Position numbers and translations under genes: made by a program | Assembly: GCF_010548305.1 (NCBI RefSeq) | Contig: NZ_JAAGLV010000016.1 | Coordinates: 1-64,000 of the forward strand | Direction of reading: 5' to 3' | DNA: 64,000 nucleotides | Origin: Streptomyces sp. SID13031 | Lineage (GTDB): Bacteria; Actinomycetota; Actinomycetes; Propionibacteriales; Kribbellaceae | Notes under the pieces: generated by a model | What the model was told of the DNA's origin: nothing | Database searches by the model: none | What the model saw: the letters and a program-made list of their open reading frames with translations, nothing else | Shown: positions 32,411 to 34,901 of the stretch, one piece after another | How the letters are laid out: each line of letters starts with the position of its first letter | How positions within the stretch are numbered: position 1 is the stretch's first letter

Positions 32411-32431
32411 GCGGCTCAGTGTACGGGAGGG

Positions 32432-32575
32432 CTACATCCCCCAGCAGACCGCGGTGATCCCGCAGCCGGGTTCGGCCGGAGGCGGCGCCGCCTCGGCAGC
32501 GGTCTTGCCGGGCAGGAGCGTAATAGCCGTGAAAACCAGAGCAGCGACGACTACAGTGAGCCACTTCTTGATCAC
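32432..32575 (-). CDS. small secreted two-cysteine peptide
   Basis: A 47-residue protein from GTG 32575, with AAGGA about ten bases upstream. The N-terminus (KKWLTVVVAALVFTAITLLP) is a classical signal peptide. Cleavage near TAAEAA would leave a short Pro-rich peptide ending CGITAVCWGM, in which two cysteines four residues apart could form a small loop. It is divergent from two TrmB-LuxR regulator genes 98 bp away. It is not recognised as a known family. A signalling or antimicrobial peptide is possible but only inferred from size, export and context. Confidence 0.6.
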   Translation of the reverse strand: MIKKWLTVVVAALVFTAITLLPGKTAAEAAPPPAEPGCGITAVCWGM

Positions 32576-32601
32576 GAGACGTCCTTTCGAAATAATCGGG
32601 T

Positions 32602-32623
32602 GACCAATCAAGCGCTCATTGTC
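32602..32623. promoter_or_regulatory. imperfect palindrome in the divergent peptide/regulator promoter region
   Basis: GACCAAT and ATTGTC flank AAGCGCT, giving an imperfect dyad centred on AGCGCT midway between the peptide gene and the regulator gene. It is a candidate operator for the LuxR-type regulators. Confidence 0.35.
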
Positions 32624-32673
32624 GGCGCGCTCTGTATATGGTCGGTTCCAAACAAGTACCGAAGGAGTGCGCC

Positions 32674-33657
32674 GTGCTGGAACCGCTGGGTGTGGATGGG
32701 GCCACCTTTGCGGTCTACCACGCCCTCCTAAGCCATCCCGACAGCACTCCGGCGGAGATTTCGGCATTGGTAAAGCTACCTTTGGCCGAGGTCAGCCAGA
32801 TCCTGGACGATCTGCGGAAACTCGAACTCCTGGTCCCGACCTGGACCAACCCGGACGCCGAGCACGCGGTGCATCCCCGGGTCGGACTGTCCGGGCTGGT
32901 GGAGCGCCGCCGCGGCGAGCTGAACCGGATGGCCGACGAGCTGCGCCAGGCGGAGACCTCGGCCGAGGTGATCTCGGAGCAGTACAACGAACTGCTCACC
33001 TCCCGCAGCAGCGGCGACGTCGAGGTGCTGAAGGGACGCGCCAACGCGTCGCGCCGGATCGAGGAGCTCGGCCTGAACGCCCGCGGCTCCTTCTGGGGAA
33101 TGATCCCCGCGCACATCGACGACACCATCCACCCAGACTCGGTCACCCCCGACCTGCAACTGCTCCAGCGCGGCATCAAGCTGCGGACCCTCTACCTGCA
33201 GAACATGACCGTCTCCAAGCCCGGGCTCGACTACGCGGCCACCCTGCACCGGCACGGCGGTGAAGTCCGGGCGACCCCGACCCTGCCGATGCGGCTGCTG
33301 ATCATCGACCACGAGCTGGCCGTGATGGCGATGGACCCGCAGAACCCGACGGCAGGCGCGCTCATCCACCGCAGCCCCGCCGTCGTCGCCCTCGCGATGT
33401 CGCTGTTCGACTCCTACTGGTCGCGCTCCGCGGAGCTTTTCTCCCCGGAAGACCGCGACGACAACAACCCGCTCACCCCGCACGAGGCCGAGGTACTACG
33501 CCTGCTGGCCGGCGGCGCCAAGGACGAGCAGGTGGCCCGCCTCCTCGGCATCTCGCTGCGCACCGCCCGCCGCATCACCGCCAACCTCTCCGAACGCCTG
33601 GACGCCACCTCGCGCTTCGAACTGGGAGTGGCCGCCGCCAAACGCGGCTGGGTCTGA
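32674..33657 (+). CDS. TrmB-LuxR hybrid transcriptional regulator (first of tandem pair)
   Basis: A 327-residue protein from GTG 32674 behind GAAGGAG. Residues about 1-60 form a TrmB-like winged helix (GATFAVYHALLSHPDSTPAE, then SQILDDLRKLELL). A helical linker (RRRGELNRMADELRQAETSA) follows. The middle domain (about 115-245: RGIKLRTLYLQNM, LPMRLLIIDHELAVMAMDPQ) has the phospholipase-D-like TrmB sensor look. The C-terminal LuxR HTH is LTPHEAEVLRLLAGGAKDEQ, then SLRTARRITANLSERLDATS. There is no receiver domain, so the signal is not phosphorylation. It is divergent from the small secreted peptide gene, and a paralogue starts 3 bp after its stop. Confidence 0.82.
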   Translation: MLEPLGVDGATFAVYHALLSHPDSTPAEISALVKLPLAEVSQILDDLRKLELLVPTWTNPDAEHAVHPRVGLSGLVERRRGELNRMADELRQAETSAEVISEQYNELLTSRSSGDVEVLKGRANASRRIEELGLNARGSFWGMIPAHIDDTIHPDSVTPDLQLLQRGIKLRTLYLQNMTVSKPGLDYAATLHRHGGEVRATPTLPMRLLIIDHELAVMAMDPQNPTAGALIHRSPAVVALAMSLFDSYWSRSAELFSPEDRDDNNPLTPHEAEVLRLLAGGAKDEQVARLLGISLRTARRITANLSERLDATSRFELGVAAAKRGWV

Positions 33658-33660
33658 CGG

Positions 33661-34652
33661 GTGTTCGAGTCACTTGGCGTCACAGAGCAGACGCTGACCA
33701 TCTACCGCGCCCTCCTGCAGCGGCCGCAACTGCTGCAGGGGTCTGGCGGAGAGCTTCAGACCTCCCTCGCCGCTCAGGCAGCGATCACCGAGGCCGAGGC
33801 CGTCCGGGAGCTCGGGCGACTGCGGGAACTCGGACTCATCGTCCCGCGCTGGAACATCGCAGACCAGGAGTACCCGCTCGACCCCGCGGTCGGATTCGAA
33901 CGCCTGGCCGCCCGGCAGCGGGAGCAGATCGACGGTCTGGCCGAGACCTTGAAGAACGACGAGACGAACGCCAAGGGATTCACCGCGGACTACCACGAAT
34001 TCCTGACCCAGAAGACTGCCCGCGAGGTCGAATTACTCGAGGGCAGCGAAGCCGCCTATCAGCGACTGCAGAAGTTTCAGCCGCAAAGATTGGTCGGGGG
34101 AATGTTGCCGGCCAATGGAGTGCGCACCCACGAACTCGAGGATTCGCCGGACCGGCCATTTCTCGAACGCGGTGTAGATGCCCGGTATTTGCTCACCGAA
34201 GCGCATTTGAAGACGCCGGGCGCCCGGGAATACGCGCTCTGGAGCATGGGTTACGGCGCCAAGTCCGCACCGTGCCGTCACTGCCGATGAAACTGGTCAT
34301 CTTCGGCGATGCGGTGGTGTTGGGCATCGACCCCCAGGACAATTCCGTCGGCGCCGTCGTGCACCACAGCATCGCGGTCGTGAACCTGGCGCGGGAGTAC
34401 TACGAGAGCTACTGGCGCCGCGCCGACGACCCGTTCGCCGATGAGCAGCGAGACGAGGACGGGATCAGCTCGCTGGAGGCTGAACTGCTGCAGTTGCTGG
34501 TACAGGGGGCCACCGACGAGCAGGCCGGGCGGAAGCTTGGGGTTTCCTTGCGGACGATCAGGCGGATGGCGGCGAAGCTGAGTGAGCAGGCGGGGGCTTC
34601 GGGGCGGCTTGAGTTGGGAGTGCGGGCGGCTCAGCGGGGGTGGGTTCGGTGA
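33661..34652 (+). pseudogene. TrmB-LuxR hybrid regulator (second of pair), single frameshift
   Basis: It is a paralogue of the preceding gene in the same domain order. Frame 1 runs from GTG 33661 (FESLGVTEQTLTIYRALLQR through to SMGYGAK) and hits a stop at 34290. The continuation (LPMKLVIFGDAVVLGIDPQD, and the LuxR HTH with LLQLLVQGATDEQAGRKLGV, then SLRTIRRMAAKL) is in another frame up to 34652. Restoring one G near 34263 (AAG-GTC) would rejoin them and recover the VRTVPSLPMKL seam expected from the paralogue. It is either a recent mutation or a sequencing error, since no other damage is visible. Confidence 0.75.
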
Positions 34653-34715: not shown

Positions 34716-34901
34716 TCAGATACACCAGCCAGGTTTGTGGCCGGAAGCTGCCATCGGGTGGTGATCGCGGCAGAAGGATGCCTGCTGCGGCCAGTGTTCG
34801 ATGGTGGTCGAAAGCCGGGCGGTGAGGCCGAGCAGGATGATGATCAGTACGGTGGTGGCGGCGAGAACGGCCGGTGAATACACCATACGTTCGGCAATCA
34901 T
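34716..34901 (-). CDS. possible small membrane protein
   Basis: A 61-codon frame starting MIAERMVYSPAVLAATTVLI, with one membrane segment. The short tail holds two cysteines (FCRDHHP and a terminal GWCI). It is less convincing than the peptide at 32432 because no good ribosome-binding site is visible. The remaining parts of 34653-35071 contain nothing recognised. Confidence 0.35.
   Translation of the reverse strand: MIAERMVYSPAVLAATTVLIIILLGLTARLSTTIEHWPQQASFCRDHHPMAASGHKPGWCI

Follow-up and report, generated by a model that had tools for sequence, protein, structure and literature searches.

The closest described counterparts of the locus examined here are the RRNPP systems of Firmicutes (Rap-Phr, PlcR-PapR, Rgg-SHP and ComR-ComS), in which, as here, a small secreted precursor is encoded adjacent to a cytoplasmic one-component receptor-regulator. 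A 2023 survey takes tetratricopeptide repeats as the defining feature of RRNPP receptors and describes actinomycete signals as typically small molecules made by enzymes (PMC10075063), and the presence of LuxR proteins in Actinobacteria has been called intriguing in a 2016 review (PMC4748050). In the window, that is, the whole 64,000-nucleotide stretch of Kribbella DNA that was analysed, a short, putatively exported peptide is encoded divergently from a regulator combining a TrmB-type winged helix with a LuxR-type DNA-binding domain, and the locus likely represents a self-contained peptide-signalling circuit made up of a peptide pheromone and its intracellular receptor.

The peptide gene (32432-32575, minus strand) is placed between purF and the divergent regulator 1 and encodes VIKKWLTVVVAALVFTAITLLPGKTAAEAAPPPAEPGCGITAVCWGM, a product of 47 residues with a GTG start. 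About six bases upstream of the start codon lies the ribosome-binding site AAAGGA (32582-32587, minus strand), and an A/G-rich stretch is kept at the same spacing across the Kribbella set. The initial annotation had claimed a 47-residue exported peptide ending in CGITAVCWGM; the open reading frame and its ribosome-binding site are indeed present, and the sequence predicts a Sec-type signal, likely cleaved near AEA↓A, ahead of the tail C-GITAV-C-W-GM. The computed monoisotopic neutral masses are 1037.41 for oxidised CGITAVCWGM and 1753.76 for APPPAEPGCGITAVCWGM. No Pfam or NCBIfam model matched the peptides, apart from a few weak matches far below the cut-offs. No convincing sigma-70 site was found for the peptide promoter, although GGAACC ... 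CGTCGA might be read as an ECF-like one.

By eye, the neighbours of the locus include purM, purF and NADP transhydrogenase subunits. Neither a permease, a protease nor a target gene was linked to the locus, no immunity, export or modification gene was recognised at it, and no RiPP modification enzyme could be seen by eye among the open reading frames flanking the locus in the window. A histidine kinase, an AgrB-like processing enzyme and a LuxI-type synthase were likewise not recognised at the locus or among its neighbours. In Kribbella, purF keeps a constant position on the same strand, its start lying 10-95 bp beyond the stop codon of the peptide gene, and carries a conserved TAGACT-like box of its own, suggesting from its sequence that the purF transcript is leaderless. 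The corresponding -10-like box of the window (32411-32431) reads TACACT and stands 6-7 bases before the purF GTG start. Neither an Rfam family match nor a terminator was found in the peptide-purF region.

Regulator 1 (32674-33657, plus strand, with its GTG start codon at 32674) is composed of a TrmB-type winged helix (residues 1-70), a long helix, a PLD-fold sensor (approximately 112-257) and a LuxR/GerE helix-turn-helix (HTH, 262-327). Pfam GerE scored above its curated cut-off (E 1e-7, 31.8 vs 23.5 bits) and Pfam TrmB just below it (E 3e-5, 24.4 vs 25.6 bits), and we therefore term the protein TrmB-like, not a TrmB. Residues 5-255 matched TrmBL2 in a PDB profile search (E 1e-8), and the AlphaFold2 model (mean pLDDT 84), whose pTM of 0.50 makes the domain arrangement uncertain, matched TrmBL2 in Foldseek (E 1.7e-14). 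The middle domain resembled both PLD-family NucT (Z 17.6) and the TrmB sugar-binding domain (Z 15.7). On a sequence reading, LPMRLLIID occupies the position of the HxK motif of PLD enzymes, so that the catalytic histidine position has apparently been replaced and PLD catalysis looks lost. The Pfam scan of regulator 1 detected no receiver domain and no autoinducer-binding domain. In Kribbella rubisoli, regulator 1 is split over two frames near residue 254-260 (L058 4759-4977 / L074), possibly owing to a frameshift or a sequencing error. The initial annotation had described two regulators with a winged helix, a PLD-like sensor and a LuxR HTH and without a receiver domain; Pfam, profile and model evidence bear this out for regulator 1, but its tandem paralogue, regulator 2, turned out to be frameshifted.

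Regulator 2 (33661-34652, plus strand) is read in two frames, 33661-34290 and 34272-34652, with a frameshift near 34263 in a region that is read through in homologues. It is probably a pseudogene in the window, and an assembly error could also account for the frameshift. About one third of the Kribbella genomes have an intact gene, whereas several carry a broken copy and many have none, a pattern suggesting repeated loss (noted with L057, L059, G029 and G032), and the gene is dispensable in the genus. The second short membrane frame to which the initial annotation had drawn attention (34716-34901, minus strand, ending in GHKPGWCI) does exist, but it is recognisable in only six of the 38 Kribbella genomes, where two of its relatives are interrupted by a stop, a third is out of frame, and they occur with or without regulator 2; it was rejected on these grounds as a second signal or circuit part. 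The tail is similar among the six genomes with this frame (FCRDH.P.AASG..GWC). A tail like FCRDHNPLAASG..GWC is common to them (seen with L252, L253 and L254), and the N-terminal part is disrupted in some.

The peptide and regulator 1, by comparison, form a conserved pair. All 38 Kribbella genomes of the genus sample were searched for a regulator orthologue and a neighbouring peptide, and every one contained a regulator 1 orthologue and, beside it, a divergently oriented peptide gene about 100 bp away. By pattern, 37 of the 38 peptides have a GTG start, I[KR] at positions 2-3 and a distance of 98-104 bp from the regulator start; the remaining one, from the divergent genome G031 (locus L068), has an ATG start and was read by eye. 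No two of the 38 sequences are identical. A Cys-Trp in the terminal region and an upstream Cys are invariant in all of them, with two (eight species), four (14 species) or five (16 species) ring residues between the Cys, never three. The Trp is the exact C-terminus in 30 peptides and is followed by 1-5 extra residues in the other eight, and A-x-A motifs, which suggest signal cleavage, occur in 31/38. Retention of the Cys-Trp as a part of the purF promoter was ruled out by the variation of the gap (10-95 bp) and of the Cys codons.

In close pairs, dN/dS (Nei-Gojobori) was lowest in the LuxR HTH (0.08), which is nearly frozen across Kribbella, and rose through the winged helix (0.21) and the sensor (0.24) to about 0.55 in the peptide, the value of 0.54 for the mature peptide alone being rough because this part is hard to align. 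The peptide is thus under coding constraint and yet evolves fastest. Its conservation, together with variation that keeps the reading frame, ruled out a chance open reading frame; the peptide is thus real, and its recurrence in 38/38 genomes is far above chance.

The intergenic region contains a divergent promoter/operator block, CTGTATATGGTCGGTTCC (32632-32649), that is near-invariant in 37 of the 38 species. When all 38 genomes were searched with two mismatches allowed, it was present at the peptide-regulator locus in 37 (G031 has no such match at its locus), and elsewhere only three two-mismatch matches were found, in three genomes. Together with the following bases it makes up the dyad GTCGG-TT-CCGAC, which is perfect in 22/38 species and imperfect in the window, where the right half deviates. 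Because the block is unique to the locus and symmetric and the HTH is frozen, CTGTATATGGTCGGTTCC is the putative operator of regulator 1.

Close regulators were also collected from the class Actinomycetia and from Streptomyces (the genus of G680), and their flanks were fetched. The 1.1 kb divergent region was scored for a small Sec-type open reading frame with a Trp in its last six residues, signal peptides being called by a simple hydrophobicity rule and not by a trained predictor. Comparable pairs were found there, with such a frame beside 47 of the 95 distinct related regulators, a figure that is no survey estimate because the scan criteria were fixed while part of the data was in view and the loci were picked by similarity to two query regulators. 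The controls are independent of this bias: the three control positions, one upstream on the same strand and two downstream, gave 0, 2 and 0, and 20 dinucleotide shuffles gave a mean of 0.5 loci with a maximum of 3. The frame at L201, which probably arose by chance, was later removed from the 47; in all 46 peptides kept, no more than 0-2 residues separate the Trp from the C-terminus. The Trp motif is present in two or more copies in 19 of the 47 peptides, vs 1.2 expected from residue shuffling, with VIGWD repeated five times (L172), SINWD and TTVWE four times each (L175 and L210) and DAGWQ and DLPWT three times each (L185 and L212). Computed monoisotopic neutral masses are 588.29 for VIGWD and 633.28 for SINWD. 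Named Streptomyces plasmids, including pSCL4 of S. clavuligerus and one of S. europaeiscabiei, carry a Trp-tailed divergent peptide at seven of ten loci and an internal GYGW at an eighth, and these peptides, where annotated, are listed as hypothetical proteins. About half of the sampled related regulators are without such a peptide.

Two further observations concern the Streptomyces loci and their relatives. A third divergent gene of approximately 90-140 residues (MHMIH... VEHV... VGLFV... CRRAL) lies between or beside the peptide and the regulator at many Streptomyces loci (L241 1645-1914, L242 1749-2033, L245 1899-2324, L247 2029-2373 and L249 1618-1950) and was not seen at the Kribbella locus. 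At L144 (possibly also at its close relatives L143 and L145, and at L146), the regulators adjoin acyl-carrier-protein-like genes, and no Trp-tailed peptide was present within the fetched flank.

A phylogenetic tree built from 126 regulators united regulators 1 and 2 of Kribbella with a support of 99 and set them next to the group formed by the Trp-peptide regulators, away from 14 of the 16 Kribbella paralogues; the other two paralogues fell inside the Trp-peptide group and are without a peptide. Loci with and without a Trp tail were intermixed within this group. At 45 other TrmB-LuxR loci (41 Kribbella paralogue loci, a few of them overlapping, and four from Nocardioidaceae), no divergent Trp-tailed peptide was found. 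Peptide motif similarity correlated with regulator identity most strongly for the sensor (Mantel r 0.53), followed by the LuxR domain (0.48) and the winged helix (0.32), and the partial correlation was 0.27 for the sensor given LuxR and 0.07 for LuxR given the sensor, although part of the sensor's advantage may come from more accurate distances, as it is a longer domain than the HTH. Common descent accounts for part of the correlation. The Kribbella tail is a single copy with two Cys, whereas Streptomyces tails mostly have no Cys and are often repeated, so that joining the two rests on the regulator phylogeny and the Trp tail. On balance, we lean towards the view that they represent an undescribed pheromone class of Actinomycetota, in which Sec-exported precursors with short and often repeated Trp motifs at their ends would be read in the cytoplasm by TrmB-LuxR regulators acting as PLD-fold peptide receptors.

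The repeated motifs, the variable signal, the fixed DNA-binding domain and the dedicated site all fit a pheromone. We infer translation, processing, import and binding, along with whether regulation is positive or negative and what response follows. The 47-residue precursor would be exported by Sec and its signal peptide removed, releasing a short C-terminal product with a Cys ring that could be closed by a disulfide, together with the Trp. By analogy with RRNPP systems, this peptide or a fragment of it may re-enter the cell, probably via an oligopeptide permease, and could then bind to the PLD-fold sensor of the adjacent TrmB-LuxR regulator. The peptide-bound regulator would alter its binding to the dyad-like intergenic site, and transcription of peptide and regulator would feed back on each other. 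The circuit of peptide signal and receptor-regulator envisaged in the initial annotation is thus retained in a narrower form: it withstood the conservation check proposed with it, given the pair in 38/38 Kribbella and the different Trp-tailed peptides, many with repeated motifs, beside the Streptomyces relatives, but regulator 2 and the second membrane frame drop out of it.

Alternatively, the peptide could be the output of the locus, namely a peptide secreted as an antimicrobial or for a role in adhesion or in the envelope, with a regulator that answers some other ligand and a variability that reflects an arms race. This would suit the hypervariable Cys-ring tail and a conserved site found only at the peptide promoter, as for a dedicated switch; we nevertheless regard it as unlikely, as the locus has no recognisable immunity, export or modification gene, the tandem short Trp motifs of the relatives are better suited to multi-copy signal precursors than to toxins, and motif similarity tracks the sensor domain. 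It is quite improbable that the peptide stays in the envelope or monitors it while the regulator senses the intracellular build-up of precursor and so reports the secretion or envelope state. The pairing of a Sec-type signal with a cytoplasmic receptor and the lack of a linked importer would be in line with such a sensor, but the A-x-A motifs of 31/38 peptides suggest cleavage, the invariant residues lie in the tail and not in the membrane part, and the relatives have repeated motifs. Control of purF by this frame, acting as a leader peptide or an upstream open reading frame, is scarcely credible even though its place ahead of purF is constant in Kribbella, since purF's own conserved box, resembling a leaderless promoter, makes the peptide probably no purF leader, the Cys-Trp is retained whatever the gap, neither an Rfam element nor a terminator is present, and the Streptomyces peptides examined are not beside an annotated purF.

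A pheromone-receptor pair of this kind would matter for the many actinomycete LuxR proteins without known ligands. If the proposal is true, dozens of Streptomyces regulators, some of them near biosynthetic clusters, would gain predicted ligands, which could be synthesised straight from the genome sequence and tried, for example, as inducers of silent pathways. In a literature search with thin coverage of subscription papers and preprints, Trp-tailed peptides beside TrmB-LuxR regulators appeared undescribed, and a prior description is possible.

Compared with known systems, the locus shares a small secreted peptide and a possible ring with Agr-type and other two-component autoinducing-peptide systems, but neither a histidine kinase nor a receiver domain nor an AgrB-like enzyme was recognised at it, and a disulfide rather than a thiolactone would be expected. 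With LuxR solos and LuxI/LuxR quorum sensing it has in common the GerE-type C-terminal DNA-binding domain, but regulator 1 is without an acyl-homoserine-lactone binding domain and no LuxI-type synthase was recognised nearby. Archaeal TrmB and TrmBL2 align with it over residues 1-255, comprising the winged helix, the long helix and the PLD-like effector domain, but regulator 1 has an extra C-terminal LuxR HTH. TrmB itself binds sugars, and to our knowledge an adjacent secreted peptide is not part of the TrmB family. With RRNPP systems, the locus further shares a short C-terminal active part, a variable signal and the absence of a receiver domain, and the exported propeptide characteristic of them stands directly beside the receptor at 38/38 Kribbella and 47/95 Actinomycetia loci. 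Neither the Pfam scan nor the structure model of regulator 1 revealed tetratricopeptide repeats, and the system would therefore work like RRNPP without being a member. Unlike those systems, it belongs to Actinomycetota, joins a TrmB winged helix, a PLD fold and a LuxR HTH in one regulator, and pairs this regulator with a peptide that has a Trp tail.
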